Origin: Gautieria morchelliformis
Lineage: Eukaryota > Basidiomycota > Agaricomycetes > Gomphales > Gomphaceae
Length of the DNA stretch: 64,000 nt
Direction of reading: 5' to 3'
Assembly: GCA_015179125.1 (NCBI GenBank)
Contig: WHVA01000020.1
Coordinates: 62,001-126,000, forward strand
Shown here: one piece after another, positions 5,436-62,868 of the stretch
How the letters are laid out: each line of letters opens with the position of its first letter
Position numbering within the stretch: position 1 is the first letter of the stretch
Notes under the pieces: model-generated
The model's database searches: none
The model's input: only the letters and a program-made list of their open reading frames with translations
Told to the model about the DNA's origin: nothing
Translations under genes and position numbers: made by a program

Positions 5436-5694
5436 TAGGTGGCATCAAGGGTCGATCAAGGGTCAGGGGGATGCAGGGTTGATGGCGGGTGCCAAGCGTT
5501 GTCCCTGGCTGCGCAGCGTAGTATAATACGGGCTCGCTGACATTGGGGGTCCTTAGACTTTTCTCTTTGGATTTCCCCTTGTCAGGTGAGAACCCCCTCT
5601 CTTGTATGCTCTGTTCATTTATACATACTTTGGATTTCCCCTTGTCAGTTGTGTGGTAGTGTGATCTCCACGACTAGCCAGGGTTGCCCTTACA
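5179..5694 (+). repeat. 3' LTR of family A (516 bp)
   Basis: Begins TGTCAGGGGACACC and ends GCCCTTACA. The outer part has tandem units built on CACATCCAGTTCCGACAC (about four copies, 5211-5275) that are missing from the solo LTRs, which explains its extra length (516 versus 462-463 bp). Two copies of CTTTGGATTTCCCCTTGTCAG lie 63 bp apart near the 3' end. Confidence 0.93.
5586..5648 (+). other. Possible 63-bp intron in family A LTR
   Basis: The first copy of the duplicated block ends CTTGTCAG and is followed by GTGAG, a consensus 5' splice site. The second copy ends CTTGTCAG, a consensus 3' splice site. Removing 5586-5648 would merge the two copies. The length fits fungal introns. The unrelated-length A-prime LTR has the same layout. 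Inferred; no transcript evidence. Confidence 0.35.
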
Positions 5695-17795: not shown

Positions 17796-18008
17796 TGTAA
17801 AGATGTCTATCTTAAGCCTTGAGTCACAAGAGCACGACAGAACTTGACCAATGTGTGGTATTCTGATGCTACGTAGTGACAGTGTAAGGGTAAGATGCGA
17901 TGGGGGCCGCTGGTCGGTTCCCACGCATAAACTATACAGTGGGTCCCTAAGGGGCCCACTGGGATTATGTAATAACTAATGTACATGTAGATACACGGGT
18001 TATTTACA
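17796..18008 (-). repeat. 3' LTR of B1 (213 bp)
   Basis: On plus it reads TGTAAAGATGTC ... GGGTTATTTACA. It contains a near-perfect hairpin, CAGTGGGTCCC / GGGGCCCACTG, around a TAA loop (about 17938-17962). The polypurine tract abuts it at 18009-18022. Confidence 0.95.
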
Positions 18009-18022
18009 CCCTCCCCTCTATA
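18009..18022 (-). other. Polypurine tract of B1
   Basis: Minus strand reads AGAGGGGAGGG directly before TGTAAATA of the 3' LTR. B2 has the matching AGAGGGGGAGGG at 35809-35820. It marks the plus-strand primer and confirms the element's orientation. Confidence 0.8.
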
Positions 18023-18043
18023 GAAAGCTATAGGGGTTAACTA

Positions 18044-20026
18044 CTACTCATAGAGGTCATCCATGAGGGAGTCCTCTAGAGTGGCCGATACGATGATGTC
18101 GTCGTCGTACGGGGCCAGTGGAGCACGTGACTCCTCCAGGGGCACCTCCACGTCATCGGTGGTGATTGGGTGAGGCTGGTCGGCCTCACCACTAGCGGCG
18201 GTATCCGCTTGGGTGATGGGGCCAGTGTCCTCACGGAGCATGGCCTCAACGGCCGGGTCCTCAGTCTGAGGAGGGGGCCGGAAGCGCGCCAGCTCTCGGT
18301 CAAGCTGAGCATGAGTGAGGGGTCACGGCACCGCGGCCCTCACGTGGCTGGTCTCGATGACCTTTTGTTGGCCCTCGCGGGCGGCGGCACTGAATGCCGC
18401 GCCGGTGATGCTGCGTTGAACATAATGTTCAATGTGCACCACTCACTCACGAGTGACTCCCGCATAGCGGGCCAACCATCTCGCGATCTCCGCGAGTGGG
18501 ATGTCGGGGCCGGCTCGGCCCTCCACAGGGAATGGGCCCGTGATTGAGAGCCGCAGGGTGGTGCTCTGAGGCGTCAGCACTTCCCTGGCGTCGATGAGGC
18601 TCGGCCATTGGTCTGTCGAGCCGAAGAGGTCGAGTAGCCTCGCCCTGAGAGGTGATGCGACCCCTTTGACCCGGGGCACAAGGGCCTTCAACCACATCCA
18701 GACGTCCATGTCGTCTAGGTTGAAGGTGCCATCCGTGTTGTCACGGATCGCGGATGGGATCCCTTCAGGGTTGGGTATCCAACCCTTCAGAATGGCCGCG
18801 ATGTCGTGCGGGGTACTGCCCGCTATCACGAGACAATCCCTTTTGGGATTGCGAGCGCGTTGTTCGCGCTCGATGCGTTTGAATACACCGATCATCTCGC
18901 GCGTACGCGCGAGCTGCGGCGTTTCTTTTGCCCGCACTATGAGTTCGACGAAGCGTGGGTCGTCGAGCGGGCAGACGTCGTACCATTGACTACGACGCTG
19001 TTGGGCCTTTCCTACCGGCCGTGGTAGGAGGTCCGTCTCGGAGATCGGTGGGTCTCCGAGTGGTATGATCACTCCCTCCCCTGGGTAGGGAGGGTGAACT
19101 GTCCCCGCCGGCGGAGGCAGGGCCACGCCAGGCCCGATGTACTGGGCCTCGATCTGTGCTACCCGCCGCTGAAGGGCGGGGTCATTGACGGTGTGCGACG
19201 ATGACGCCACTAGGAAAGCGCTAATCGCGCTTTCCTTTGCAATGGTTAGCCCATTGACGGTGTGGGGGGAGCCATGCAATTTCTTGCGCTTTTTCTTTGG
19301 CTGCTCTGCCAGCCTCTGTGCCCGTTCAGGTTCATATGTCTTCCAGACGGATGAGTCGGACTCCCATCCATTGGGGACGCCGTATGCAGAGTCGGAAGGC
19401 GCGCTCTGCCCTTCCGTCGTTATCGTTGTCGGGGTCGGCGCCGACAATCGGGACGCTAGCCCCGATGTTGTGCGCGCCGGCAACGGCGCCGTCGCGCGAG
19501 GTGATGATGGCCCGGCCACTGGGTCCGTGGCCGGGTCATGTCGCGGCCTTTTTGAGGCAGCGTGGACCAGGGTAACCTGGAGCTGGGCTGCGCTCAGCTG
19601 TTGCTCCAGTTCCTTGATCCTGGTGCGCTCGGTTGCGAGCGCGTCATCGCGGTCCTCGACCGCGCGTTCCAGCTCCTTGACCTCTTTTTTAAGGTTGTGG
19701 ATGTCCCGGAGGGGCTCTTCTCGCGCGTCACACGCGATGCCCCTTGGGAGCCATCCCCAAGCTGCATCGACGGCATCGCCGATGTCTTCATCCCGCAATT
19801 TGACCTTGCGGGTGCCGGTCGCAGCCCTAAGGTGCGTGGCGTAGTCTGCGCATGTTGCGCAATTGTCTGGGTGGACGATGGCGAGGGCGTCCTCCCATCC
19901 CACGATCATCCAGTGCTCCTGGTCTATTGGAGCACGGAGAATGTCTGCGGCACCCTGTCTCGGGGCCGTTGTTCGCGTTGTGGACGTTGACGGATCAATG
20001 TCCATCCCATCTTTGGGGGGCATCAT
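18044..20026 (-). CDS. Family B extra ORF (ORF3), unknown function
   Basis: A 527-codon frame (20026-18443), then a TGA where B2 has a Ser codon; homology continues to 18044 (ending SLMDDLYE) with one more stop, so the ancestral protein was about 650 residues. N-terminal motif HPDNCATCADYATH fits H-x3-C-x2-C-x5-H, conserved in B2 (HPDGCDNCMLFAAH). A coiled coil follows (LKKEVKELERAVEDRDDALA), then a Pro/Ser/Ala-rich linker, then a conserved block NPEGIPSAIR, DVWMWLKALVP, SPLRARLLDLF, DIPLAEIARWLARY. It starts about 120 bases after the chromodomain stop, in the position of an env gene, but has no signal peptide or membrane segment. I recognise no family. It may be a nucleic-acid or particle-binding accessory protein. 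Confidence 0.75.
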
Positions 20027-20146
20027 CTTCGTGGGTAGATGATGGTGGTTGCTTCCAAGAAGCGATGCGCCCTTGGAAAGATCCGAGGCGAAAATTTAAC
20101 CGCGCCGGCCACGGCGCGTCACGTGGTTTGCACATGACAGACGTGT

Positions 20147-23100
20147 CTAGCGGGGTCTGGGGAGGACGCGTGGCTTGCCCACCCCCCGAAGCTCTAGATA
20201 GCTATCTAGGGCTTCAAGGTCCTTGCAGGACGACATGGGTTCCCATGTCACATCGCCTAGGGTCCAACGGACCTGGAACTCCAGGTCCGTCGAGTTTATC
20301 CATTGATGTGCGATAATCTCGTCAACGAGCCACTCAAACACATTTCTATTCACATTGCCATCGCCCTCTGCATACATAGCGCACCACTTCAACCGCTTCA
20401 GTGACTGCAGTCCTCTCCTCATCGTCATTTGCCCCGAAGTCATAAAATGACTTGGCCTCACGACGAGGGAACAATTCGTCATTGTTAGCCTCGTATCGCT
20501 GCATGAGGCTGGAATGGAAGACCGGTGAAATGCGACGGCTTTTCAGTTCGTCGGGAAGATCAAGGGTCACCGTCGAGGTGTCTTTGTGAGCCTCGACGAC
20601 GCGGTACGGTCTGATGTACCGCGGGACTAATTTTCTGGCTCTTCCTTTCGGGAGAGTTAGGTTTTGTGTCGAAAGGTAGACGCGGTTGTTGGCCGCGTAC
20701 CTGTTGCTCGCCATACGTTTCTTATTCGCTTGAAACGTTTGCGTCACTCGATGCTCTATGATTGCATCGTGTGCCGCCATCAGGTTCCATTTTGCCTGAT
20801 GTGCGAACCGGGCCACCCCCTTGAACGGGGTGTCCACGGCTATGGGGAGGTCTATCCGCGGCATATAGCCGTGGTTCAGCTCGAAAGGTGCGAACCCTGT
20901 GGTCGCGCTGACGTTGCTGTTGAGGGTGACCTCGACCATTGGGCATTTCAATGCCCAATCCTTCTGATTGTCTCTGACGACTGCACGCAATATCTGGCCG
21001 ATCGAGCGGTTTGCCCACTCGGTTGCTCCATCTGTTTGGGGATGGAAGGCAGTTGACCTGAGGAGCTTAGTCCCCATGAGTCGCTGTAGTTCACGCCAGA
21101 AGATCGACATGAACTTTGAGTCTCTGTCCGAGACGATGGAGTTGGGAACTCTGTGTAGTCGGATGACCTCCTTCAGAAACAGCCAAGCTACTCCCTTGGC
21201 TGACATGCTCGTCGTGGTTGGAACGAGGTGTACGAGCGACATTAGTAGGTTGATGACTACCATCAGGTAGTCACAGTCGTTGGATTTGGGCAGGGGCCCC
21301 ATGAAGTCGATGCCAATCGACTGCCACGGCCTATCTGGAATGGGTAGGCTGTGTAGTAGGCCTTTGGGCCGTTGTGGCCTGGTTTTCATCATCTGACACC
21401 TCGCGCACGATGTGCAGAACGCTTCTATGTCTGGGCTCATGCCTGGCCACCAATATGCTCTTCGAACGTAGTTCGAAGTCTTCAGATGGCCGTAGTGGCC
21501 GACTATCTGATGTGCCCGATCAATGATAATTTCGATCAGCTTCCTTCCCCCTTAAAGAACAGAGTGGGGGACGGCAATGACGTCTCTTTTGAGCTGATTC
21601 TTAGTCCAGATCAGCCCGTCCTGGATCCTGAATCTCAGGTGCGCGTCCAGGTGCACCATGATCTTTGTGAACATGGTGTCCCTGTGGTACGCGTCTCGTA
21701 GGACCTTAGACAGGTCTACGCCTTGCTCGATGACCCGGCGCAGGGGCGCGCCGTCATTTCCTGCGGCGATGGCTCTGACGTCATCGTTGTCGTTGCAGGA
21801 CGCGGCAACGTTCACGGGCTCTGGTGAGCCCTCGTTTAATGCGGCGGCTTCCGTTACTCTCACCTCTGTCTTCTCAGCGAGGCATTTAGAGCGTCTTGTC
21901 GCCGCTGTTCGCAACTCGACATACCGGTCGGTGGGCAATAACTCACCGTCCAGGTCCAAACGCGCATCCGCGTTCACGAAGACATGGTCCGGGTGATTGT
22001 CATCACTCGTGTCACTCTCGTAGTAGCGCGACAGGCAGTCGGCTACCTTGTTCTCTATACTGTCAACATGAACGGTGTTGAAATTGAACCAGGAGAGAAA
22101 CTCCCACCATCTGACCTGTTGGTCAGATAGGCTCTTCTGGGTCTCGAAGTACTCGAGCCCTTTGTGGTCTGTGACGAGGGTGAACCTTTGCCCCAGCAGT
22201 TTGTCCTCCCATTTCATGAGAGCCTCAAGCACCGCGATTGTCTCGTGCTCGTGAGTCCGGTAGTGTTGCTGAGCAACGCTGAACTTCTTTGACAAGAAGC
22301 CGGCTGGTCGACAAGTTTTCCAGTCAGGACCTTGGCCGTAGACCACACCGACGCCGGCTTTTGATCCGTCGGTGATCACCCAGATCGGCTCTGGGCACCT
22401 TGCGTCTACTGGACGCAGGATCGGGGCCTTACAGGCCAACGCCTTAATGCTTTGCCAGCATTTGTCGAGTAGTGGTGTCCATTCGAATGGACGGTTATTA
22501 CGCGCACAGCCCGATAGCGGGGTGGTATATGCGCTAACATCCGGCATGTAGTGTGCCAGATACTGTACCAGCCCGAGGAAACGCTGGACGTCGTTGAACA
22601 TCCGTGGCCTGCACCACTCGCGGATGTGTTGCATCTTGTCCTCGTCGGCATGTACCCCTCGTGTTGGGTGCATTTATGCTCCTGCACCAAAATCAAGCAT
22701 AATATATCCAATTTGTTGTGTGGTTTCTCAATTTCTTCTCATATTGTTCTTGTATCATGCATCCATTTCTCTGGTTATTTTCGAAATTTTCCACTCACTC
22801 CCTATCTCTCCATTTCATCTTGTTATTCCTACTTTCACAAGCGGCCGCACCCAGCGGAGTCTGAAACGACTTCGACGCGCGAGCTCTTGGGCGCTAAAGG
22901 GCCGGGTAGTAGTACATGCGCAGTGAAACAGTTTTCCCCCTCTCTCAGTGACAAATAAATTCACTGAGAGAGGCAAGTAAATTAGTCTAGCATTCTTTCG
23001 ATTTATTAACCTAGAAATCCTCTGTAGTGAATTGTTTTCTAGGTAGTGTATAATATATTTACAGTGACAACTAAATTCACTGAGAGAGTGAATTGTTTTC

Positions 23101-24094
23101 TAGTCTATTCTTTTGAGCAACAAGTCCATACCTACTGCCTATAATTCCTGTCCTCTACACCTCGGCCATCGATCATATGGCCGAGACACTCCATTCGGAT
23201 GGAGTAGAGGTCCACCTTTTTCTTGCTCAGAAAGAGGTGATTCTTCCTCAGTCTGTCAAAGACGATGTAGAGGTGCTCTTCATGCTCTTGTATTGAGAGC
23301 GAGAATATGAAGATGTCATCCATGTATATATGGACGAAGCGACCTATGCAGTCGCGGAAAATGGCTGTCATCAGCCGTTGGAATGTTGATGGGGCGTTAC
23401 AGTCCCCCATCTGTATCACCTGGCTCCTGAAGGTGCCAAGGATCGTGGCAAAGGCTGTCTTTGCAACGTGATCCGGATGGATCCGGATCTGCTCGTATGC
23501 TTCTGACATATCGAGTTTTGTTCAATATCGGCAGCGAGCCATGTCACTGCGTATGATATCTTGATCCGGGAAGGGCGTGATGTCCTTCACCATGTTCTTG
23601 TTCTGCTGGCGCAGATCGAAGACGGTTCTCAACATACCGTTCTTCTTCGGCACACACAGCATGGGCACTGCCTGCTGTGCTACTGCTGGAATCCACCACT
23701 TTGCAGTGGTGTATCGTTCTATCTTAGCCGACAGTTCCTCTCGGAAGTGTTCGGGGCATTTCGGTAGTCGATACCGCATGTGCTTGTTGGGATCGATGAG
23801 GTTGATCTCATGGTTGATCTCCTGGAGTGGTGGGAGTTCTAATGGAATTCCACTGACTAGGTCAGTGATTCTTTCCATCCATTCCTCGCAGAGGCGAGGA
23901 AGGTCATCATCCGTGAGGATGATGGCAGTGGTTGGCTTAGATGCCATTAGGTGCTGTTGGCGTCTATTAGGTCCTGCGGCACGTGGGTCCGCTTTCCTCT
24001 TTCCCATCGCTTTCACCGTTAGGTGAGAGCATCTCTCCCAACGGCTGTAGGGTGAGTTCGAGGATGAGTCGTCCCGCGACTCGTCCTCCTGGCT
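20147..24094 (-). pseudogene. pol: Pol of B1: RT, RNase H, integrase, chromodomain
   Basis: In frame with Gag-protease after TGA 24095-24097. RT catalytic YMDD near 23310-23330 (HIYMDDIFIF). RNase H follows at 22400-22100 (ITDGSKAGVG, HEHETIAVLEAL, TDHKGLEYF). Integrase has H-H-C-C (AHQIVGHYGH ... CTSCARC) and D, D-35-E (GIDFMGPL, IVSDRDSKF, TEWANRSIG). The chromodomain (VDEIIAHQWI ... LEFQVRWTLGDVTWEP) ends at 20147. Defects: TGA near 23516 where relatives have Arg, the solo copia LTR at 22662-23159, TAA near 21553, and a frameshift near 20370 before the chromodomain. Confidence 0.9.
22662..23159 (+). repeat. Solo copia-type LTR, family C, TSD CCTCG
   Basis: TGTTGGGTGCATTTATG to CCTCTACA, 498 bp, flanked by CCTCG at 22657-22661 and 23160-23164. 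It splits the RNase H-proximal RT of B1 (GHMIDGRGV then HADEDKMQH). Inverted repeat CCTCTCTCAGTGA at 22939-22951 with its complement at 22961-22973. Confidence 0.95.
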
Positions 24095-24097
24095 TCA
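24060..24097 (-). promoter_or_regulatory. Putative stop-codon readthrough site, B1 (TGA plus stem-loop)
   Basis: TGA (24097-24095) ends the Gag-protease frame after NLAH; RT continues in the same frame (SQEDESRDDS). After six bases (AGCCAG) comes a stem-loop at 24088-24060: arm GAGGACGAGTC pairs with GACTCATCCTC (one C-A mismatch), extended by one G-C, closing on CGGGA. B2 and B3 hold the same TGA, spacer and hairpin with compensatory substitutions. Confidence 0.7.
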
Positions 24098-27000
24098 ATG
24101 AGCCAGGTTCGGCTTCGGCGCCTGGATGATCATGCTCACCCATGGCCCTTTGTCCTCGTTCTTCGATTCGTTGTCGTCGAATGAGACCTTGCCTGTGGGG
24201 ATCACTTTGTTTCCCTTGCGAATCGTCCCTGGGCTCGAGAAGTCCAGGGTTATGCCGAATCTCCTTAGGAACGGTGTCCCTAAGATCGCGTCGTAATATT
24301 CGACGTTTGCTATGTCGAAATATTCGTCGTATGTCCCACAACCAAACTTGATGGTCGTGTTCGTTCCATAGTTGATCGTGGAACGGCTGCCTATGCAGGC
24401 TAGCTGCAGCACGATTGGTTGCTCCAGGGAGAATGTCTTCATCCCTGTAGCTCACGTGAATTCGGGGGACAGCAGTACCCCTTCGCTGCCGCTATCTAGC
24501 AGGCAGTGGGCTTTTACGCCGTTTATTTCCCAGTACCCCGATAGGGTACGGTTCTCACTGCGCGGACGTGTTGGCCGCGTCCTGTGTTTGCTTCGGTGGT
24601 GATACACTGGCTCGGCCACCTTGTCTGGCGTGACCGATGTGCGTGCCGCCATGACCTTCGTGGCGGTTTCGTCTTCCAGTGCGAATCTGATCGCGCTGGA
24701 CCTGTAGGTGGTGTCTTCCACCTCCTCGTCCCATTCATAGCATTGGGACGGCTCTGGGTCCCATTCTTCAGTGGGCGCATCTCCATTGTCCGGAGTGTCG
24801 TTGGGTTGGGGATCACCCTCCCCCTCTTCGTCAATTTGGTGAAGAGAATTTTGACTGAGATCTGTCTCTGGATCCTCGGCTTTGTAAGGGCAACCCTGGC
24901 TAGTCGTGGAGATCACACTACCACACAACTGACAAGGGGAAATCCAAAGTATGTATGAATGAACAGAGCATACAAGAGAGGGGGTTCTCACCTGACAAGG
25001 GGAAATCCAAAGAGAAAAGTCTAAGGACCCCCAATGTCAGCGAGTCCGTATTATACTACGCTGCGCAGCCAGGGACAACACTTGGCACCCGCCATCAACC
25101 CTGCATCCCCCTGACCCTTGATCGACCCTTGATGCCACCTATTATGCGAGTCGCTTGATTTCCGACACTGTTCCGGGGCGGAAGTCGGAAATTGGAGTGG
25201 AACTGGCAAGGCGAACGGAACTGGTGGAAGTTCTCCCAGAAGCGGAATCGTTCCCGAAAGCGGATGCGGAGATGGAATCGGAACCGGAAGCGGAGTCGGA
25301 AATGGAGTCGGAACTGGAAATGGAAAACAGGGTGTCCCCTGACAGGCTTCACCTTCGTGCCTCACGGCCGCTGTCCTTATACCGGACCTAAGCCGGGGGC
25401 ACTCCGCCTTCTTGTGGCCAGGTTGGCCGCATTCAAAGCATGTGGTGGTGCTTTGGCTGCCACTGGGCCTATCATTAGGCCGGCCTGACGTTGTCGTCGG
25501 TGGGGCAGGTTGTGGGGACGACCCTGATGCTTGAGGCTGTTTAGCTTCAGGCGGGCGTCCAGCTTGTGCTGGGCGTGAGGGCGGTAGCCGTTGTCCTGTT
25601 CCGCTTCTTGCGAACAGGCTGGGCCTGGTCAGGCCCATTTGTGTCAACGGCTTGCTCCCTGTGAGCCGGGCAGCTCTTGCCATTGCTGCTGCGCTTTCTG
25701 CGCGGCGCATCCCCATGTTGTATCGGGATGCCTCCTCGATCATCCGGGCCGTCTCGAAGAGTTGCTCTAGTGAGCTGCTCTTGGCATTATAGCCCTTTTT
25801 GAGGACCTCGCTGCGCAGCGCCGATACGAACCGTCTCCGGAACCTGTACTTGTCTGGCGGCTGTATCATACGTGCCGCGTATTTCGTGAGCTCGTTCAGC
25901 ATCTCCTGAATGGTTTTCATGCCTTGCATGACTGCGTCGAATTTATTTGATGTGTGATGGTACGTCAGTGTGTGCAGGAACCTTTTTTGAAGGCCTTGCA
26001 TCACGGTTTCCAGTTTCCAGCTGCAGACCTGGCGATCGAAGCGTTCAACGTTTCGAAGGAACCACTCCTGGGCTTTGCCGGTGAGGCAAGTGCCCACATA
26101 GCCGACCTGCATGTCAATGCTGGTTGGCCCTAGGAGGCAATTCATTTTTAGCCATAGTAGGATGGTTGCCACGAAGATTTCAAACTCTTCGAGGTCAGAT
26201 CCCCTGGCATATGGCTCGGGGTGAGCCAATTTTATGCCGGCTTTAGCTAGCACAGACTTCTCTGGGTCTGTGTCCGCGGCGTCTGCTAACGCCACGCGGA
26301 TCATCCATGTGATCCCGTCGTATGGCTCCATTGGTACAACGTCGGCCTGGTCAGGGATTCCCCGGCCGTCCGTTGGGGCCATGGATTACTCGCGCGGTTG
26401 TGATGCCGTGCGGGGCAGGCTGTTATATGCCCTGACGGGCCCCGGGCCCGGATCGGGCTCGGGATCGGGAGCATTCTGTGCTCTCGGTTCCGGGAGCCTT
26501 TTGTGCCTGGTGTCCCTGGTCAGTCCCGCATTGCGGATACGTAGCCTGCTGTTGTAGGCTGCGTGCGCCTGCGCCTTGTACGGCTTGCGTGAGCTGCTCG
26601 TCGGGCAGCTGAGCGGTGTGGCTGTGGGCCACTGTCTCTTCAGCGTTTTTCGCTAGTAGCTCGAGTGCCCATGTGTGGCGGCATGCGGCTGCGGCTTCTT
26701 TACGCTGCCAGTGTGCGACTTCGAGCTCTAAGCTCTCAGTCGTCATTTCAGAGTCAGGCTCTGAGGCGACCTGATCCCTAACGATCTGTTGGATCGTTTT
26801 ACGGCTGTCCGTTGGGGCAGCCGGTTGTTCTTGAGGTTCGTTCCCGAACCTTACATCCTGTTCGACCAGGACGGCTGGCGGCGGCATTTGCTGCTTGTCT
26901 CGCTCCTTTTGGCGTGGGTCTTCCACGTCGCGACTGCGTTCGTTGGCTGCGGACTGTCGCAAGCTCGGACGAGTTGCATTGCGTTCCCTGCGTGGGCGGA

Positions 27001-27649
27001 GTGCTTTCTGGACGTCCTCCAGCGTGGCTGCATCTTGCAGCCTGACCTCCTCCACCTGGTGGAGTTCCTTGCCGATTGCCATTAGGGCGGCGGCGGCGTT
27101 GTCAAGCTGCGATGCCAGCTGATCATGCTTGTGGCGCGTCAGTGTACTTCGGTGCAGCGCAGCCTGCACCTGTTTGTTCAGGGCCTCTGCCGTCTCGTGG
27201 TTGATGGCGTGAGCCCTCGAGCTCTTGCGACTAGAGCTCAAGTATTCCGAGTCCTGACCATCGTCTGGGGCTCGTCTTTTTTGCCGTCGTCCTCCTTCAG
27301 GGACGATCGTCGTCGCTCTACTTCGTGAGCATCGGTTTGAGTCGTGGCTTTGTGCCCGCCTCGACGTTGTTGCTCTACCGTCTGACGACAGCGAGACTTC
27401 TCTACCCTTTCCTTTGTCCTTGGGTAGAGAGAGATGGGGGGGCGGTGCCGGCTCGTTGCCCGGCGTTGTCTCTTCCTCGGCCACACTCGACGAGACGTGG
27501 TCGGGGTTTTCCTCGTCCTCTACTGAGGGGACGAGGGCGGTGAGATCCACGATCTCTCCGTCTTCTATCGTCCTGTTCTCTTGGTCCAGGACAGCGTCAG
27601 CCGTCATGTCGCTGGGCTGCGCCTGGGGCGTGGACCTCGAGCTCGTCAC
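24098..27649 (-). pseudogene. gag-pro: Gag-protease of B1, interrupted by a solo LTR
   Basis: The N-terminal 400-codon acidic, coiled-coil region (27649-26423) shifts frame near 26450 into Gag (MAPTDGRGIPDQ from 26382). The capsid has the YVGTCLTGKAQEWF and FDRQV blocks. The CCHC knuckle is intact (CFECGQPGHKKAEC near 25410-25370). The frame is then cut by the LTR at 24883-25344 and resumes at 24882 with an acidic linker. The aspartic protease motif LLDSGSEGVLLSPEF (near 24510-24465) precedes TGA at 24097. Protease is thus encoded with Gag and not with RT, unlike family A. Confidence 0.88.
24883..25344 (-). repeat. Solo LTR, family A, TSD GGCTT
   Basis: On plus TGTAAGGGCAACCC to GTGTCCCCTGACA, 462 bp, flanked by GGCTT at 24878-24882 and 25345-25349. 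It lies inside the B1 gag linker; the acidic linker reads in frame on both sides once it is discounted. Confidence 0.96.
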
Positions 27650-27820
27650 TCATGTCCGTCTTCGACTGCGTGGAATCATCATGCTCGCAGCCGACAGTAG
27701 AAGGTCCACTGGAGGGTCTCAACGATGTTTAGTCGTCGACGCAGTGATCTTTTTCAAGATTGCTTCGAATCCACTATCAGTTGGTCGCGTGGCGATCAAC
27801 CGCAGGATAGTTCAAAAAGG

Positions 27821-28033
27821 TGTAAAGATGTCTATCTTAAGCCTTGAGTCACAAGAGCATGACAGAACTTGACCAATGTGTGGTATTCTGATGCTACGTA
27901 GTGACAGTGTAAGGGTAAGATGCGATGGGGGCTGCTGGCCAGTTCCCACGCATAAACTATACAGTGGGTCCCTAAGGGGCCCACTGGGATTATGTAATAA
28001 CTGATGTACATGTAGATACATGGGTTATTTACA
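27821..28033 (-). repeat. 5' LTR of B1 (213 bp)
   Basis: Same ends as the 3' LTR, about six differences, all transitions. The minus-strand sequence just inside is CCTTTTTGAACT, shared with B2 and B3. It lacks the TGG expected of a primer-binding site for a tRNA 3' end. Confidence 0.95.
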
Positions 28034-44098: not shown

Positions 44099-44278
44099 CA
44101 CCTTTGAGAGAAGATGATGGGGGTGATGGTGGTTGCTTCTCAAGAAGCAATGCGCCTCAGAAAGATCCAAGGTGAAAATTTAAGCGACGCCATCGGCAGG
44201 GCCTGGCATCTCACGTGATCTGCATGTGACCTACGTGACCTGGTGTCTTTTAGGCAGGTTGCACAGTTTATTCACGCC

Positions 44279-47200
44279 TCAGAGCTCTAGGTAGTGATCT
44301 AGAGCTTCCAGGTCCTTGCATGCTGACATGGGCTCCCATGTCATATCACCCAGGGTCCATTGGACCTGAAGTTCCAGGTCCTTGGAATTTATCTATCTAT
44401 GGGATAAAATTTCGTCGTTCGTGCCGAAGTCGGGAACAAGTTTGCTTCTCGATGAGGGAATAAGTCGTCATTGTTGGCCTCGTACCGTCGTACAAGGCTG
44501 GTGTGGAAGACGGGCGTGACACGCCTGTTCTTCAATTCGTCCGGTAGCTCAAGAGTTACCGTCGAGGCCTCGTTGTGGGCCTCGATCACGCGATACGGGC
44601 CAATGTATCACGGCACCAGTTTCCTGGCCCTTCCCTTGGGCAGTGTCAGGTTCTGAGTGGATAGGTATACCTGGCTGCTGACTGCATACGTGTCACTATC
44701 CCGGTGTTTCTTATTTGTGTGAAACACCTGCGATACTCGGTGCTTTAGTATGGCGTCGTGCACCAACATCAGGTTCCAGTGAGCCTGTTGTGCCAGCCGG
44801 GACACTCCCTTGAACGGGGTGTCCATTGTCATGGACATGTCTATCTGTGGCATGTACCCGTGCTCCAATGGAGTGAACCCCATTGTGGTGCTGACGTTGC
44901 TGTTGATGGCCACTTCGACCATCAGGCACTTGTGTGACCAGTCCTTCTGGTCGTCTCTGACAACCGTCCATAGGATCTGTCCAATCGAGCGGTTGGCCCG
45001 CTCGGTGGCTCCATCCGTTTGTGGATGGAATGCGGTCACCATGAGGAGTTTAGTCCCCATGAGCCGCTGAATTTCACGCCAGAAGATTGACGTGAACTTT
45101 GAGTCTCAATCCAAGACGATGGAGTCAGGGACTCCATGGAGTCTGACGACTTCCTTGAGGAATAGCCAGGCTACTTCCTTCGCTGTGACCCTTGTCATTG
45201 TTGGGACGAGGTGGACATGCGAAGTTAGCCTGTCTATGATTACCATGAGGTAATCACAGCCGTCTGACTTGGGCATCGGTCCCATAAAGTCGATTCCGAT
45301 CGACTGCCACGGACTGTCTGGGATGGGCAGGCTGTGTAGCAGGCCCTTGGGCTTTTGGGTGCCAGCTTTGTTCATCTGGCACCCCACGCACAAGATGCAA
45401 AACGTCTCGATGTCGGGGCCCATGCCTTGCCACCAGTATGCTCTTCGAATATAATTCAAAGTCTTCATGTGGCCATAGTGGCCCACAGTTCTGTGTGCAT
45501 GATAGATTATGGTTTCGATCAGCCTCCTTCCCTCGTGAAAAACAGTCTGGGGGACAGCAATGACATCTCTCCTGAGCTGATTTTTTGTCCATATCAGCCT
45601 GTCCTTGATGCCGAACCTTGGGTGGGCATCAGGGTGCACCAAGATCTTCGAGAACATGGTGTCTTCGTGGTCTGTGTCGCGCAGGACCTTTGGCAGGTCC
45701 ATGTCGCCTTCAACGCTCACGCGCAGAGGTGTACCGTCATTGCCTGTGGCAATGGCACGGACGTCGTCGTTGGTTTCCGGTGCGATGTCCTCCTTTGGGT
45801 CCCACTCAGGACCTCCATGCAGGGTGGCAGCCTCTGCCGTCCGTGTCTCCGTCTTCTCCACAAGGCGGGTAGACCGTCTTGTGGCCGCTGCCCACACTTC
45901 GATGTATTGATCCATGGGCAGTGGCTCACCATCTGGATCGAGGTGTTCGTCTGCATTGACGAACACGTGTTCCAGATGTTGATTGTCACTCGTGTCGCTC
46001 TCATAGTATCGAGAGAGACAGTCGGCGACTTTGTTCTCGACACCATCGACATGTATGGTGTTGAAGTTGAAACGGGAGAGGAACTCCCACCATCTGACCT
46101 GTCCGTCACATAGGTTTTTCTGGGTCTCGAAATATTCGAGACCCTTGTGGTCAGTCATTAGGGCGAACTTTCACCCTAGGAGCTTGTCCTCCCATTTCAT
46201 CAGGCCTCGAGCATGGCAATAGTCTCGTGCTCATGGGTCCTGTAGTGCTGTTGGGCCATGCTGAACTCCTTCGACAAGAAGCCCGCTGGCCGGCACGTTT
46301 TCCAGTTGGGGCCCTGGCCGTACACGGCACCGACACCCGACTTTGAACCATCCGTGATGACCCAGATAGGGTCATTGCTTCGGCGGTCTACCAGCCGCAG
46401 GATGGGGACCTTGCAGGCCAGTGCCTTTATGCCTTGTAGGCACTTGTCCAGCAGCGGTGTCCATTTGAACGGCCGGTTATTGCGGACGCACCCTGATAAC
46501 GGGGTGGTGTATGCACTCATATCTGGCATGTAGTGTGCCAGGTATTGTACGAGTCCGAGGAAGCACTGGACATCGTTGAACATCCTGGGCCTCCTCCATT
46601 CGCGGATGCATTGCATTTTGTCTGCATCTGCGTGCACACCTTGGCCGTCTATGATGTGGCCAACTCATATGTTCCGAATAGAGATCAACCTTCTTCTTAC
46701 TCAAGAAGAGGTGATTCTTGCGTAGTCTGTCGAAGACTATGCCAAGGTGTTCTTCGTGCTCCTTTATAGAGTGTGAGAAGATAAATATGTCATCCATATA
46801 TATGTGGACAAAGCGACCTATACAGTCGTGGAAGATCACAGTCATCAGATGTTGGAACGTCGATGGCACATTGCAATCTCCCATCAATAACTTGACTTCA
46901 GAAGGTGCCAAGTATCGTTGCGAACACCATCTTTGCGATGTCTTCAGGACGAATCCGGATCTGTTCATATGCTTCAGACATATTGAGCTTCATCCGGTAT
47001 TGGCAGCCCGCTATGTCACTGTGGATAACATCCTGGTCAGGGAAGGGCGTAATGTCCTTCACTGTATTTTTGTTCTGCTGTCACAGATCGAAGACCGTGC
47101 GTAGTGTGCCGTTTTTCTTTGGCATGCAGAGCATTGGCACTGCTTGACTGCTTGGTGTGCCACTGCTGGTATCCACCACCCTGCGGTGGTGTATCTTTCC

Positions 47201-47571
47201 AGTTTCACGGAAAGCTCTGCATGGAAATGCTCTGGGCATTTCGGCAATCGATACCGCATGCGCTTGGTGGGATCAATGAGATTTATCTCATGGTTGACCT
47301 CCCACAGGGGCGGGAGTTCAAGTGGAATACCACTGACGAGGTCAGTGATCTTTTCCATCCATTCCTCGTGCAGGCGAGGAATATCATCGTCCGTGAGGAT
47401 GATGTCAGCAGAACAAGATGCCATTAAGCGCCTTGTGCATCTATTCGGTACCGCAGGGCGTGGGAGCGCTTTCTTCTTCCCCAACGCCTTCATCATCAGA
47501 TGGGCGCATCTCTCCCTGCGTGTATAGGGAGAGCTTGAGGATGAGTCGTTTCGCGACCCATCCTCCTGGCA
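44279..47571 (-). pseudogene. pol: Pol of B2: RT, RNase H, integrase, chromodomain
   Basis: Follows TGA 47574-47572 in frame. RT catalytic YMDD is kept (HIYMDDIFIFSHS near 46800). Frames break near 47060, 46670 and 46180. RNase H/connection (MTDHKGLEYFETQ) leads to integrase with H-H-C-C (AHRTVGHYGH ... CVGC) and D, D-35-E, broken by TGA near 45110 where relatives have Arg. The chromodomain (INSKDLELQVQWTLGDMTWEP) ends TGA at 44281-44279. Confidence 0.87.
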
Positions 47572-47574
47572 TCA
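47537..47574 (-). promoter_or_regulatory. Putative stop-codon readthrough site, B2 (TGA plus stem-loop)
   Basis: TGA 47574-47572 after STQAH, then TGCCAG, then arm GAGGATGGGTC pairing fully (one G-U) with GACTCATCCTC around GCGAAAC, at 47565-47537. RT continues in frame (CQEDGSRNDS). Confidence 0.7.
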
Positions 47575-49911
47575 ATGGGCTTGGGTGGACTGTGGCCCAG
47601 AGGTGAGCCTGCTCACCTTAGGCATCTGGTCCTCTTTCGACGAGTCTTCGTCAAAAGATACTTTGCCAGTGGGGATTTTTTCGTCTCCCATACAAATTGT
47701 CCCTGGGCTAGAGAAGTCCAGGGTGATGCCTAGCTTCCTCAGGAAAGGTGTTCTGAGGATCGCGTCATAGTATTTGACGTTAGCTACGTCGAAATACTCG
47801 TCGTGAAGTTTACGACCGAATTTAATGGTCGTGTTCGTTCCATAGTTGATTGTGGAACAACTCCTGATGCATGCCAATTGCAGTGCAATTGGCTGTTCTA
47901 GGGCAAACGTTTTCATGCCCGTGGCCTGCGTGAATTCAGGGGAGATCAATACCCCTTCACTCCCACTGTCGAGGAGACAGTGGGCCTTCATGCCGTTGAT
48001 TTCCCAGTAGCCTGACAGGGTCCGGTTCTCCTGTCGCGGTCGCGCAGGGCGTGATCGCTGCTTGCTCCGATGGTGGTACATCAGCTCGGCCACCTTGTCA
48101 GGGGCGGCCGCCGTGCGAGCTGCCATTACTTTGGCGGTTCCAGCGTTGTCCGGCGCGACCCTAATCGCACTAGATCTGTATACGGTCTGGTTGTCCGCTG
48201 TGTCTTCGTCCCAGTCGTAATACTGGGATGGATCAGGCTCCCATTTGTCTGCGGGAGCCTCTGCTTCTCCTTGATCCTCATCATTTTGAGGTTCACCCTC
48301 CCCCTCTTCATCAATTTGCAGAAGAGGGGCATGGTCAGGATCCATGTCCGGATCCTCGTGGTTGCCATGTCTTGCGGCTGCTGTCCGTAAGCCGGACTTG
48401 AGCCGTGGACCCTCTGCTTTCCTGTGCCCTGGTTGGCCACATTCATAGCATGTGACACTGCTTGGAGCATTGCCAGGTAGATCTGGTGGTTGACCTGCTG
48501 GTTTCGGAGGGAAGTTCGGCTTCAACGAGCTTCCCGATGCCTGAGGCTGTTTAGCCTCAGGAGGCCGTCCCGCCGGGGCCGGATGGGGTGGCATTGGATG
48601 TTGGGATGTCCCACTCCTCTGGAAGGGGGCAGGCCTGTTCGGGCCTGCCTGCGACCCCGGTTTGCTTTGCGCAAACCGAGATGCTGTGGCTGTTGCGGCT
48701 GCGCTCTCTGCCCAATGCATCCCCATGTTGTAGCGGGAAGCTTCCTCGATCATGCGGGCCGCTTTGAAGAGCTGCTCAATGGAGCTGCTTTCTGCGTTGT
48801 AGCCCTTCTTGAGGACCTCATTGCGCAGTGTCTCACGCAATGCAGATTTGAACCATCTCCGGAACATATAGTCGTCAGGCGGCTGTATCATGCAAGCCAC
48901 GTATTTCGTGAGATTGTTCAGCATTTCCTGCACGGTTTTTGTGCCCTGCATGACCATGTCGAATTTGTTCGACATGTGGTGGTATGTCAGGGTGTGCAGG
49001 AACCGCTTCTGCAGGCCTTGCATCACCGTCTCTAAGGTCCAATCATGGACCTGGCGGTCGAAACATTCAATGTTTCGAAGAAACCACTCTTGGGCCTCGC
49101 CAGTGAGGCGAGTGCCCATGCATCTGACCTGCATATCAATGCTGGTTGGTCCCAACAGGCAGTTCATCTTGAGCCATCTCAAGATTGCCACAACGAAGAC
49201 CTCGAACTCTTCAAGGTCTGACCCTCCCACGTATGGCTCGGGATGGGCCAGCTTTACGCCGGCCTTTGCAAGCATGGACTTTTCAGGGTCCGTGTCTATG
49301 GTGTTGGCCATCGCGACACGTATCATCCGTGTGATACCGTCGTATGGCTCTTGCGTGCTTTCCGGCTGGTCCGGTATGCCCTGGCCCTTGGTTGGGGCCA
49401 TGGATCGGTCGCACAGCTGTGACGTCGTGCGGGCCATGTCTGTGTAGGCTCTTATCAGGACCGGGGCCGGGTCTGGCTCTTGTCCGGGCACCTCAGGTGC
49501 GTGGGTCTCTGGCGGGGGTGGGTGACACATGTCACCTGTCAGCCCGGCGTTGCGCAGGCGCAGCCTGCTTTTGTAGGCTGCGCGCACTTGTCGTGCATCC
49601 TGTATGGCACGTGTGAGCAGCTTGTCAGGCTGCCGGTCAGTGTGTGGCCTTGTGCCACGGTGGCTGCAGCATTCTGCGCTAACAGCTCGAGAGCCCGTGT
49701 GGCGACGTGCCACACTGGCTTCCTTTCTTTGCCAGTGCGTGGCCTCGAGCTCCAGGCTCTCCGTCATGGTCTCAGAGTCCGGCTCTGAGACAACTTGTTC
49801 CCTGACGATCTGTTGGCTCATCTTGCAGCTGCTTGTTGGCACAGCTGGCTCCGTGTGCAGTTCACTTCTGAATTGTACGTCTTGTTCGACAGGGGCAGCC
49901 GGCGGCGGCAT
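47572..49911 (-). CDS. gag-pro: Gag-protease of B2
   Basis: 779-codon open frame joining the N-terminal region (VEQDVQFRSE), Gag capsid (MAPTKGQGIPDQ, GAQEWFL-type EAQEWFLRNIECFDRQV) and protease (LLDSGSEGVLISPEF) without interruption, showing that Gag and protease are one unit in this family. The zinc knuckle has lost its last Cys (CYECGQPGHRKAEG). The listed start is internal; the N-terminal part continues at 50536-51000 beyond a solo LTR and a TGA. The TGA at its end is treated as a readthrough codon. Confidence 0.85.
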   Translation of the reverse strand: MPPPAAPVEQDVQFRSELHTEPAVPTSSCKMSQQIVREQVVSEPDSETMTESLELEATHWQRKEASVARRHTGSRAVSAECCSHRGTRPHTDRQPDKLLTRAIQDARQVRAAYKSRLRLRNAGLTGDMCHPPPPETHAPEVPGQEPDPAPVLIRAYTDMARTTSQLCDRSMAPTKGQGIPDQPESTQEPYDGITRMIRVAMANTIDTDPEKSMLAKAGVKLAHPEPYVGGSDLEEFEVFVVAILRWLKMNCLLGPTSIDMQVRCMGTRLTGEAQEWFLRNIECFDRQVHDWTLETVMQGLQKRFLHTLTYHHMSNKFDMVMQGTKTVQEMLNNLTKYVACMIQPPDDYMFRRWFKSALRETLRNEVLKKGYNAESSSIEQLFKAARMIEEASRYNMGMHWAESAAATATASRFAQSKPGSQAGPNRPAPFQRSGTSQHPMPPHPAPAGRPPEAKQPQASGSSLKPNFPPKPAGQPPDLPGNAPSSVTCYECGQPGHRKAEGPRLKSGLRTAAARHGNHEDPDMDPDHAPLLQIDEEGEGEPQNDEDQGEAEAPADKWEPDPSQYYDWDEDTADNQTVYRSSAIRVAPDNAGTAKVMAARTAAAPDKVAELMYHHRSKQRSRPARPRQENRTLSGYWEINGMKAHCLLDSGSEGVLISPEFTQATGMKTFALEQPIALQLACIRSCSTINYGTNTTIKFGRKLHDEYFDVANVKYYDAILRTPFLRKLGITLDFSSPGTICMGDEKIPTGKVSFDEDSSKEDQMPKVSRLTSGPQSTQAH

Positions 49912-50045
49912 GCGTCGTCAGTCCTGCTCCTGTTGTTGTTGTTCGTCGGGGTGGTGAGCTTGGTTGCTCGCTGGGGTGTGGGGTGTGCTCCTGACGGACG
50001 CTATGGGCTCTTCGTGTGAACGAAGGGCTTTTTGCACATCTTCTA

Positions 50046-50535
50046 TGTTGGGTGCATTTATGCTCCTGCACCAAAATCAAGCATAATATATTCGATTTAT
50101 TGTATGGTGTTTCAATTTCTTCTCACATTGTTCTTGTACTATGCATTCTTCACTTCTCTGGTTATTTTCGAAATTTTCCAGTCACTCCCTATCTCTCCAT
50201 TTCATTTTGTTATCTCTATTTTCACAAGCGGCTGCACCCATCGGAGTTTGAAATGACTTCGAAGCGCGAGCTCTTGAGCGCTAAAGGGCCGTGTGCACGT
50301 ATAAGCATTCTGAGACAGAATAGTACTCCTCTCCCAGTGACAATAAATTCACTGAGAGAGGCGAGTAGTATCTTTTATATTTCCATAGCATGTTGACTGA
50401 AAATCATGTAGTGAATTTGATTCTAGGTATTGTATTAATATAACAGTGACAATAAATTCACTGAGAGAGTGAATTTGATTCTAGCTTTCTAAGAACTCTA
50501 CCGAACCTCCCTGCCATAACCCCAAGTTGCTAACA
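50046..50535 (+). repeat. Solo copia-type LTR, family C, TSD TTCTA
   Basis: TGTTGGGTGCATTTATG to CAAGTTGCTAACA, 490 bp, flanked by TTCTA at 50041-50045 and 50536-50540. Same inner-end subfamily as 7932-8360. Inverted repeat at 50328-50340 (one mismatch) and 50349-50361. Confidence 0.95.
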
Positions 50536-52973: not shown

Positions 52974-53184
52974 TGTAATATTGTGAATCTTATGGCCTTG
53001 TGTCACAAGGGCAAGTGGAACTCGACCAATGTGTGGTAATTCCGTGTGCTATGTAGTGACAGTTGTAAGGTAAGATCTGGGGAACCGCCGTGTGGTTCCC
53101 ACGCAATAACTGTACAGTGCTTATCTAAGCAATCCAGTAGCGCGCATTGCCTTAAGGGCAATGCGGGTAAATATCCTATTTACA
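52974..53184 (-). repeat. 5' LTR of B2 (211 bp)
   Basis: Plus strand TGTAATATTGTG to ATCCTATTTACA. Contains hairpins GCATTGCC/GGGCAATGC and GGAACC/GGTTCC. The adjoining leader begins CCTTTTTGAACT as in B1 and B3. Confidence 0.92.
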
Positions 53185-54787: not shown

Positions 54788-54929
54788 CCTTTTTGAACTT
54801 CCTGCAGTTGTTCGCCAAGTGAACAACTGAATTGTGGAAATCCGCATGATCTTGGAAAAAGATCGCTACGTCGACAGCTGTTTACCGTTGAACATCATCC
54901 AGTAGACCCTCTACTGTTGACTGCAAGCG

Positions 54930-57900: not shown

Positions 57901-58634
57901 AAGAGGGGGAGGGTGAACCTCAAAATGATGAGGAACAGGGAGATTCAGAGGCTCCTGTAGATGAATGGGAGCCCAAGCCATCCCAGTAATATCACTGGGA
58001 TGAAGAAACAGTGGACAATCAGACCACATACAGGTCCAGCGCGATTAGAGTTGCGCCGGACAATGATGGGACCGCCAAAGTAATGGCGGCATGCACAGCA
58101 GCCGCCCCAGACAAAGCAGTGGAACCAATGTATCACCATCGGAGCAAGCAGCGATCACAGCCCGCACGGCTGTGAAACGAGAACCGTACCCTGTTAGGGT
58201 ACTGGGAGATCAACGGCGTGAAGGCCCACTGTCTCCTCGACAGTGGGAGCGAAGGGGTGCTGATCTCCCCCAAATTCATGTGGGCCACAGGCATGAAGAC
58301 ATTTGCTCTAGAACAGCCAATCACACTGCAACTGGCATGCATCGGTAGTCATTCCACCATCAATTATGGAATGAACACGACCATTAAATTTGGTCATAAA
58401 CTCCATGATGAGTACTTCGACATAGCGAACGTCGAATACTATTATGTGATCCTCGGGACACCATCCCTGAAGAAGCTAGGCATCACCCTGGACTTTTCTA
58501 GCCCAGGGACAATTCATATAGGGGACGAAACAATCCCCACAGGCAAAGTATCCTTCAACGAAGACTCTTCGAAAGAGGACCAGGCACCGAAGGTGAGCCG
58601 ACTCACCTCCAGGCCATGGTCCACTCAAGCCCAT
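54930..58634 (+). pseudogene. gag-pro: Gag-protease of B3
   Basis: N-terminal acidic region (STTADATLDQES-type, LDQESRTSEDGEIVDL) to 55267, the coiled coil 55348-55584 ending in TGA, then frame changes near 55840, 56160 and 56260. The capsid is split by insert H (56468-57028) and resumes at LKMNCLLGPTSIDMQV (57050). The zinc knuckle has His to Asp (CFECGQPGDRKAEC). Stops occur near 57988 and 58173. The protease LLDSGSEGVLISPKF (58232-58280) reads to TGA 58635-58637. Confidence 0.85.
56468..57028. mobile_element. AT-rich insertion H (561 bp)
   Basis: Splits the B3 capsid between AIL and LKMNCLL. CTTG on both sides (56464-56467, 57029-57032) may be a 4-bp TSD. The left two thirds is very AT-rich (TATAATATACATTATAAGAG units, and a near-repeat of ATGAGAGAGTATC); the right third has GGCGGAGCCACCGCTTGGGG and CCTCTTCTTTTCTATAATCT. 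A fragment of its right end recurs at 10165-10272, so it is a dispersed repeat of unknown class. Confidence 0.6.
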
Positions 58635-58672
58635 TGAAGCCAGGAGGGCAAGTCGCGAGACGACTTGTCCTC
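58635..58672 (+). promoter_or_regulatory. Putative stop-codon readthrough site, B3 (TGA plus stem-loop)
   Basis: TGA 58635-58637 after STQAH, AGCCAG, then arm GAGGGCAAGTC pairing along its whole length (one G-U) with GACTTGTCCTC around GCGAGAC at 58644-58672. RT continues in frame (SQEGKSRDDL). Confidence 0.7.
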
Positions 58673-61600
58673 AAACTCTCCCTATACACGCAGGGAGAGA
58701 TGCGCCCATCTGACAATGAAGGCGCTGGGGAAGAGGAAGGCACTCCTGCGTTCGGCGGGACTGAATAGACGCACAAGGCGCTTAATGGTGTCTTGCGATG
58801 CTGGCATCATCCTCACAGACGATGACATTCCTCGCCTGCATGAGGAATGGATGGAAAAGATCACTGACCTCGTCAGTGGTATTCCACTTGAGCTCCCACC
58901 TCTAAGGGAGGTCAACCATGAGATCAATCTCATTGATCCCAACAAACACATGCGGTACCGATTGCTGAAGTTCCCAGAGCACTTCCACAAAGAGCTTTCC
59001 GTCAAGTTGGAAACATACACCACCGCAGGGTGGTGGATACCAGTGGTGGCACACCAAGCAGTGCCAATGCTCTGCGTGCCAAAGAAAAATGGCATGCTAT
59101 GCATGGTCTTCGAGCTGTGCCAGCAGAACGAAAATACCGTGAAGGATGTTACACCCTTCCCGGATCAGGACGTTATCTGCAGCGACATAGCATGCTGCCA
59201 ATACCGGACAAAGCTCAATATGTCTGAAGCATATGAGCAGATCCGGATCCATCCTGAGCACGTCGCAAAGACGGCATTTGCAATGATACTTGGCACGTTC
59301 CGAAGTCAAGTAATCCAGATGGGAGATTGCAACGCACCATCAACATTCCAACGCCTTATGACAGCAATCTTCCGCAACTGCATAGGTCGCTTCGTCCATG
59401 TGTATATCGACGAGATATTCGTCTTCTCGCACTCAATCAAGGAGCACGAAGAACACCTTGGCATAGTCTTCAACAGACTACACAAAAACCACCTCTTCTT
59501 GACCAAGAAGAAAGTCGACCTTTATTCGGAACGAATGGAGTGTCTTGGCCATGTCATAGACGGCCAAGGGGTGCATGCGCATGTGGACAAAGTGAAATGC
59601 ATCCGTGAATGGAGGAGGCCCAGGACATTCAATGATGTCCAGTGCTTCCTCGGGCCCGTATAATACCTGGCACATTACATGCCAGACGTGAGCACATACA
59701 CCACCCTATTATCAGGGTGTGTCCGCAACAACCGGCATTTGAATGGACGCTGCTGCTGGACAAGTGCCTACAAAGCATAAAGGCACTGGCCTGCAAGGCC
59801 CCCATCCTAGGACCGGTTGACTGTTGCAACCATAAGGTAATGGACTGAGTCGCTCACCTTGTATACATGTGAGTGGACAACCCACTGCATGCGCTGGATC
59901 GCACATCGAGTGATAGAGCTGAGCTGAGGCACCACGCATGCAATAAGATCTGAGTACTAGCCAAAACCGAATACACAGACTGTGGCTCATCTGTAGGGAG
60001 CCAGCTGCATATACACATCAGCCGCAGCATATTTCAACATCTATTTAGCCTGTAGCCAAACTCCTATCTACCACAGTATAAGTCCCATCCCATGTACCAT
60101 AGAATACAATATGAATCTTATCCGTCCAGCTTCAAGTCGCAAGCCGTAGTCCCCTGCGCTTGAGTGAATGTGCACCATGAGTTGAGTCGATTCTGCCTCT
60201 GCGCTCGAGTCAATGTGCATGCCCCAAGCACCTCTAACATTATAATAGTATCGACCCCTGGAGCAATGACCCTATCTGGGTCATCATGGATGGATCGAAG
60301 TCGGGCGTCAGCACCGTATATGGCCAGGGCCCCGACTGGAAAACATGCCAGCCAGTGGGCTTCTTGTCAAAGAAGTTCAGCGTGGCCCAACAGCACTACA
60401 GGACCCACGAGCATGAAACGATCGCCTTGCTTGAGGCCCTGATGAAGTGGGAGGACAAGCTCCTAGGGCGGAAATTCACCCTAGTCACTGACCACAAAGG
60501 CCTCGAATACTTTGAGACCCAGAAGAACCTGTCTGACCGACAGGTCAGGTGGTGGGAGTTCCTCTCCCATTTCAACTTCAATACCGTGCATGTTGATGCT
60601 GTTGAGAACAAAGTCGCAGACTGTCTCTCTCAATACTACAAGAGTGACATGAGCGATGATCGACATCCGGAACATGTGTTTGTCAATGCAGACGAACACC
60701 TCGATCGGGATGGAGAGCTACTGCCCACTGATCAATACATCAAACTACGGGCAGCAGCCATGAGACAGTCAACCTGCCTCGCAGAGAAAATGGAGGTGCG
60801 GACAGCTGAGGCCGCCGCCTTGCATGGAGACCCAGCACGGGACCCGGAGACGCACGTTGCCCCTGAAACCAATGACGACGTCCATGCCATTGCCGCAGGC
60901 AATGATGGCATGCCCCTGCGCGTGCACGTTGAAAGTGATATGGACCTGCCTAAGGTCCTACGCGATGCATACCACGAAGACACCATGTTCTTGAAGATCA
61001 TGGCGCACTGTATTCCCACCCAAGGCTCAGCATCCGGAATGGGCTGATATGGACAAAAAATCAGCTCAAACGAGATGTCATTGCCGTTCCCCAGACTGTT
61101 TTTCATGGGGGAAGGAGGCTGATCGAAACCATAATCGATCACGCACACAGGACAGTGGGTCACTACGGCCACATGAAGACTTCAAATTATATTCGAAGGG
61201 CATACTGGTGGCAAGGTATGGGCCCAGACATTGAGACGTTCTGCATCTCATGTGTGAGGTGCCAGATGAACAAAACTGGCACCCAGAAGCCCAAGGGCCT
61301 GCTGCACAGCCTGCCCATCCCAGACAGGCCATGGCATCGATCGGAATCGACTTCATGGGGCCAATGCCCAAATCAGACGGCTGTGATTACCTTATGGTAA
61401 TCATAGACAGGCTGAATTCGCACGTCCACCTCATCCCAATGATGACGAGGGTCACAGCGAAGGAAGTAGCCTGGCTATTCCTCAAGGAAGTCATTGGGCT
61501 CCACGGAGTCCCCAACTCCATCATCTCCGATAAAGACTCAAAGTTCATGTTGATCTTCTGGCGTGAACTTCAGTGGTTCATGGTTCATGGGGACTAAACT

Positions 61601-62854: not shown

Positions 62855-62868
62855 ATGCCCCCTCAAGC

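Follow-up and report, generated by a model that had tools for sequence, protein, structure and literature searches.

LTR elements need far more Gag than reverse transcriptase (RT). In the fission-yeast Tf1/sushi elements Tj1, Tosmo1-3 and Tcry1 an in-frame UGA has been described between Gag and protease (PR) (PMC4600332, PMC10085805), and in Tj1 this UGA is reported to be required for activity (PMC4600332). The UGA of Candida Tca2, for which a 3' pseudoknot is predicted, was reported not to be read through in S. cerevisiae (PMC2194720). RNA structures that accompany readthrough are described as usually lying about 8 nt past the stop (PMC3542737), and a covariant 11-bp stem has been reported in sireviruses (PMC5009743). 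Here we describe an in-frame UGA between PR and RT in family B, an element family represented by three copies (B1, B2 and B3) in the window, by which we mean the whole 64,000-nucleotide stretch of Gautieria morchelliformis DNA that was analysed.

Pfam matches over the B copies, several of which (Gag, PR and rve) lie below Pfam's own cut-off, place Gag, a zinc knuckle and protease 5' of the stop and RT, RNase H (RH) and integrase (INT) 3' of it, and by this predicted domain order, Gag-PR-RT-RH-INT, family B is a Ty3/gypsy retrotransposon. The earlier note took the element for a chromovirus; one B1 integrase ORF, from a decayed copy, gave no Pfam Chromo match, and the relative P0025 has PF00385. 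A further sense ORF lies 3' of integrase in B1 (18443-20095, minus strand, 550 aa) and in B2 (43175-44179, minus strand, 334 aa), the two being 34% identical over 341 positions and giving only marginal Pfam matches. By direct reading, the in-frame TGA that ends Gag-PR lies on the minus strand at 24095..24097 in B1 and 47572..47574 in B2, and on the plus strand at 58635..58637 in B3, about 55 codons past the GTPF-like motif of the protease (56 residues in B2). The earlier note on this DNA had placed the TGA at a matching codon in all three copies, with a six-base spacer after it and RT continuing in the frame of Gag-PR, and this was borne out: the spacer between TGA and stem is AGCCAG in B1 and B3 and TGCCAG in B2, and there is no frame shift past the TGA in B1, B2 or B3. 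In B2 the Gag-PR frame, taken from stop to stop with no start codon chosen, comprises 781 residues to the TGA (47572..49917, minus strand), and the frame from the next codon is open into the start of RT (47059..47571, minus strand). In the decayed B1 copy the frame stays open past the TGA, beginning with the next codon, across the linker and into RT (23522..24094, minus strand); in B3 an open PR frame ends at the TGA (58176..58637, plus strand) and the open frame after it holds RT (58638..59663, plus strand; PF00078). In two other loci, L015 and L021, the frame 3' of the UGA is open for at least 540 codons.

From the host genome 79 loci of about 1.4 kb were fetched from among the roughly 40 best matches to each of three window-site queries. 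Seventy-eight of these, with the three window copies, form a set of 81 copies; the locus left out, L051, belongs to B1 and has the stretch around the UGA duplicated locally, so that the site is present twice. Assigned by best BLAST match, 39 copies belong to B1, whose members are 93-96% alike at the site, and 42 to the older B2/B3 group. The site codon is TGA in 39/39 B1 and 36/42 B2/B3 copies (36/40 when ungapped), and the remaining six have CGA (L083 and L086, near-identical neighbours), GGA, TGT or, in two cases, a gap. Intact copies with a sense codon, which the earlier note had named as evidence against its reading, did not appear in this set: wherever both flanks have 100 or more open codons (35 copies) the codon is TGA, and none of the six non-TGA copies reaches that length. 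The same codon is TGA in four more diverged copies (L132-L135). A pattern scan of the whole genome allowing up to one mismatch returned 631 UGA sites (control, 0), and among the approximately 100 of these that were listed one is TGG and the remainder are TGA. Decay is common, as 5/67 loci of 1.4 kb have a frame that is open to the locus end in both directions, and the observation that other stops are not common to the copies also stood: over codons -110 to +140, counted from GTGAGC, only the UGA is near-fixed, the next commonest stops being found in 7/42, 7/41 and 6/38. Since the UGA is conserved across copies and no other stop is held in common, the UGA was part of the element when it spread.

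The UGA has the context CAU UGA AGC CAG, with its flanking codons fixed, and a 12-nt block, CATTGAAGCCAG, is near-invariant between the subfamilies (0.031); the adjoining interior is diverged (0.548). Folding of single copies gave a hairpin, H1, beginning 6 nt 3' of the stop, a second, H2, downstream, and a third, H0, upstream. The place of the 11-bp stem described previously is confirmed, but folding gives 12 stem positions and a 5-nt loop, with pair 6 open in B1. H1 thus spans 24060..24088 in B1 (minus strand, pair 6 C-A, loop CGGGA), 47537..47565 in B2 (minus strand, 12 pairs, loop CGAAA) and 58644..58672 in B3 (plus strand, 12 pairs, loop CGAGA). H2, of 8 bp, lies at 47510..47533 in B2 (minus strand) and 58676..58699 in B3 (plus strand), and is weak in B1 (24033..24056, minus strand), with an A-A mismatch in 37/39 B1 copies. 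H0, which contains GTGAGC, lies at 24124..24141 in B1 (minus strand) and, with 7 bp, at 47601..47618 in B2 (minus strand) and 58591..58608 in B3 (plus strand); its outer pair is G-C in 38/39 B1 and A-T in 41/42 B2/B3 copies, a clean difference that keeps pairing between the groups and is probably one event. In B1 copies a further 7-bp hairpin is possible (window 24088-24107, minus strand; arms CCTGGCT and AGCCAGG), with the UGA in its loop, cattga; B2/B3 lack it.

In 5/5 copies, chosen for a TGA and a readable site, the first 60 nt past the UGA form a more stable fold than sequences drawn with synonymous codons (z -3.6 to -4.9, with at most 1/1000 draws as stable). The 70 nt after the stop alone gave z -4.9 in B2 and -5.5 in B3, and in the decayed B1 window copy an unremarkable z of -1.3, with 17/200 shuffles folding as well. 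A window at +210..+255 is as structured as H1 (mean z -3.2), and divergence of H1 between subfamilies is ordinary (0.199, with 154/721 windows lower and, at third positions, 61/240 lower). Codon structure is kept between subfamilies over H2, 14-22 codons past the stop (ratio 0.31, about 9 codons), and is weak in the linker after H2 (0.71). A pseudoknot partner for the H1 loop was sought by eye, and no common partner was seen. The conserved UGA, the frame common to its two sides and the structured 3' side are direct observations.

Covariation in the stem, which the earlier note had described, is weak in the larger set of copies and does not prove the stem. The letter changes listed for it are real. 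The variable pairs 6/7 and 11/12, however, set a CpG of one arm opposite a CpG of the other, almost every change there is C>T or G>A, and CpG decay seems to account for most of the paired changes. When compensating combinations were tested (one-sided Fisher), the p values were 0.148, 0.032, 0.290 and 0.647 in B2/B3 and 0.077 at best in B1. Whole-arm shuffles matched the observed pairing in 341/2000 cases for B1, 33/2000 for B2/B3 and 0/2000 for all copies, the last value being affected by relatedness because subfamilies are mixed in it. The loops of H1 read as had been claimed, but their GNRA pattern is not special, being found in 2/37 of the element's tetraloops in the sense and 2/37 in the antisense direction.

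H1 is also one of many hairpins. Counting perfect hairpins (stem of at least 7, loop of 3-12 nt) over the gag-INT stretches, we found 37 in B1, 49 in B2 and 22 in B3, compared with 4.1, 3.6 and 2.4 in dinucleotide shuffles, a density of 5-7 per kb and 9-14 times that of the shuffles; elsewhere in the window, three parts had 0, 12 and 7 (shuffles 2.9, 6.4 and 6.9). Across 22 loci of 2.5-3.25 kb, of which L016 and L022 are one place and three are the window's own copies, there were 13-28 hairpins each, against 1.4-3.2 after synonymous-codon permutation. Loops were mainly of 3-11 nt, with 4 nt commonest (124/495). Two other Ty3-type families of the same genome, C and D, had 12 hairpins in 15.4 kb and 6.8 in base shuffles. 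Along the window hairpin peaks coincide with the B copies, at approximately 18000-28000, 42000-50500 and 53000-63000, and the excess apparently extends 3' of INT. A different element at 1000-5500 (plus strand), encoding protease and integrase and clearly also a chromodomain, has no hairpin with a stem of at least 7. Double changes in stems between B1 and B2/B3 kept pairing in 0.59-0.66 of cases, compared with 0.29-0.40 with slid partners; among single changes A-C was more frequent than G-U, and the hairpin excess is therefore no proof of selection on sense RNA. On each strand, folds of 120-nt windows from B are slightly more stable than those of their base shuffles (mean z -1.4 to -2.4; 0.0 to -0.7 in other parts of the window). 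The tiling may reflect selection for structure, in the RNA or in the cDNA, or template switching that copies arms.

Proteins of related elements are consistent with a division after PR, within searches that spanned 0.55-1.75 times the query length and so limited which fused forms could appear. The P0004 query returned 23 PR-region relatives, none with an RT Pfam label, and in relatives where the GTPF-like motif was matched the tails from this motif to the C-terminus were 41-77 residues; 6/10 Sphaerobolus models end 55 residues past the motif, compared with 56 in B2. P0150 (Pleurotus) continues into RT-like residues, and in several other relatives the motif was unmatched. The P0003 query gave 246 matches, and many of the 120 listed are of about 1,050-1,150 residues and start near RT, fused forms of more than 1,150 residues lying outside this search. 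Fusions of PR with RT are seen in P0003, P0008 and P0120. We considered whether P0003, a relative, might have a sense codon at the site and rejected this: its junction, HWLIEAR, would be another frame over letters like CTCATTGAAGCCAGG, judging from the protein. A search for the relatives' DNA among viral and genome contigs confirmed none, and a pattern for another pol type had 0 matches. Gag-PR proteins that end after PR, at least as predicted, occur in several Agaricomycete elements. P0005, of Gautieria morchelliformis itself, aligns to the Gag-PR of B2. In families C and D (L117-L131, 15 copies), PR runs into RT in one frame with no common stop.

We consider programmed UGA readthrough, with H1 as its likely stimulator, to be the best account of this site, and give it a probability of about one half. 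Unspliced family B RNA would be translated as Gag-PR, ending at the UGA, and a minority of ribosomes would insert an amino acid there and continue in the same frame through the linker, RT, RNase H and integrase, so yielding Gag-PR and, rarely, Gag-PR-RT-RH-INT. The likely cis signals would be the stem-loop, which starts 6 nt past the UGA, and the fixed context CAU UGA AGC CAG. From the sequence features above we infer readthrough itself, its rate and its stimulation by H1. Of the known readthrough classes, type II has UGA-CGG or UGA-CUA followed by a stem-loop about 8 nt after the stop; family B has UGA-AGC or UGA-UGC, and a 12-position stem at 6 nt. Type III has UAG with a 3' G or purine-rich octanucleotide and a structure, and the stop of family B is UGA. 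Two further points count against readthrough: neither UGA-A (B1 and B3) nor UGA-U (B2) is among the known leaky contexts given in PMC3542737, and readthrough leaves a conserved GT-AG set around the UGA unexplained. The readthrough proposed in the earlier note keeps its footing, as the likeliest reading, in the conserved in-frame UGA between PR and RT, but its argument from covariation is weak, and hairpins like H1 are found elsewhere in the element. A broader proposal, that in an Agaricomycete lineage the ratio of Gag-PR to RT is set at a post-protease stop, and that in family B short hairpins tile the coding sequence, the longest of them serving as readthrough stimulator at 6 nt, is put forward more tentatively.

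The GT-AG set is the basis of a splicing explanation, which we regard as unlikely but as the leading alternative. The proposal of a stop switch had overlooked a conserved 51-nt candidate intron across the UGA, with GTGAGC 42 nt 5' of the UGA and CAG closing the segment, at 24089..24139 in B1 and 47566..47616 in B2 (minus strand) and 58593..58643 in B3 (plus strand). As 51 is a multiple of three, removal of the segment joins PR to RT in frame; a spliceosomal intron that holds the UGA could be removed from some transcripts to join Gag-PR to RT, with unspliced RNA as Gag-PR message and genome and with H0, by pairing the donor, perhaps keeping splicing inefficient. GTGAGC is present in 38/39 B1 and 39/42 B2/B3 copies and CAG in 39/39 and 40/42. 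Candidates of the form GTRAGY-CTNA-YAG with a length of 3n are rare, covering 291/23,199 codons in 22 loci, and the UGA-spanning candidate, present in 16/22 loci at 17 codons each, accounts for about 272 of those 291 codons. However, the full signal set is absent from 6/22 loci, and the branch motif from some copies. Fungal introns are expected to be U-rich, but no U or AT enrichment was seen where the signals are exact (37 B1 and 31 B2/B3 copies), T being 0.130 and 0.144 (flanks 0.126-0.178) and GC 0.606 and 0.626 (flanks 0.496-0.586). Codon structure in the segment is weak (0.80, compared with 0.36 in PR) and its interior diverged, as an intron would be, but the same is expected of a protein tail free of constraint. 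The codons flanking the UGA are fixed, which an intron would not need. No intronless copy was found, compared with 631 UGA sites: exon-exon junction patterns with up to three mismatches gave 12 genome matches for B1 and 12 for its control, none with under two mismatches, and 0 and 0 for B2/B3. There is precedent for splicing at the same junction in Ogre (PMC6317226), and the absence of an intronless copy is not decisive, because spliced BARE1 RNA is reported to be missing from its genome as well (PMC3735527). Composition, the fixed UGA context and the missing intronless copy count against splicing, none of them decisively.

Less probable again is a bypass of the UGA, by readthrough or otherwise, in which H1 plays no part and would be an incidental hairpin among many. 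The numbers of stems of at least 7 bp given above (37, 49 and 22), far in excess of shuffles, and the equal structure at +210..+255 are what such a view would expect; set against them is the place of H1, 6 nt past the stop, where it exceeds every other hairpin in length in each of the six loci that keep it perfect (L002, L003, L005, L008, L010 and L015). Simple arithmetic puts at about 0.3% the chance that the longest hairpin of a 3.2-kb locus would start within any given 9-nt stretch. Elsewhere H1 is damaged, and longer hairpins are possible at other places (13 bp in L001 and L020). It is more doubtful still that RT-RH-INT is begun separately, by reinitiation after the UGA, at an internal AUG or from a separate transcript, with no fusion protein made. 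An ATG does stand just before RT (LMAS/LMVS) in several translated copies and in P0003, and many related pol proteins among the matches listed are called from an M near RT, a start of the kind that gene callers choose. Codon structure over the short segment at H2, 5' of this ATG, argues against separate initiation, as do the retention of RRERR.HL..RALGKKK ahead of the ATG in P0003 and the absence of the ATG from some copies (LIAS in L025). In the report on Tca2, expression from the junction was driven by a minor promoter and not by readthrough (PMC2194720).

If readthrough is the mechanism, a switch placed after protease means that protease would be produced in the same quantity as Gag, and the control of particle maturation would have to differ accordingly. 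Element-wide hairpin tiling, a second unexpected feature, bears on packaging or on the origin of such sequences. The gammaretroviral stop lies before PR. Known fission-yeast elements with an in-frame stop likewise switch before protease (PMC4600332, PMC10085805), and family B would do so after it. In this respect the placement is unusual, as had been suggested, but a division between Gag-PR and RT as such is known, in Ogre, where it depends on splicing, and in the Gag-PR proteins of relatives. Among literature titles and abstracts, with subscription papers mostly outside the search, we found no basidiomycete readthrough stop between PR and RT.

Like Tj1 and Tosmo as these are described, family B is a Ty3/gypsy element of a fungus in which an in-frame UGA is conserved where the gag polyprotein meets the pol polyprotein. 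It differs in that their stop precedes PR in a strict 8-nt context (GAA before, CT after), whereas in family B the stop follows PR, in the context CAT TGA AGC and with a strong 3' stem. Like gammaretroviral gag-pol it has a stop, a short spacer, an RNA structure and RT in the same frame, but gammaretroviruses are reported to use UAG-G, an 8-nt spacer and a compact pseudoknot where family B has UGA-A or UGA-U, 6 nt and a hairpin (PMC3542737). Candida Tca2 shares a UGA between gag and pol and a predicted 3' structure; unlike family B it is a Ty1/copia element with its stop after gag (PMC2194720). Plant Ogre elements likewise separate Gag-PR from RT-RH-INT, and are reported to make the full polyprotein from a minority of RNAs through a demonstrated, partly spliced intron in an inter-ORF region with a mean of 274 bp (PMC6317226). 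Family B has the GT-AG around the stop and the in-frame junction of the Ogre arrangement; unlike Ogre, its segment is of 51 nt, in frame and of a composition that is not intron-like, and splicing is only a candidate.
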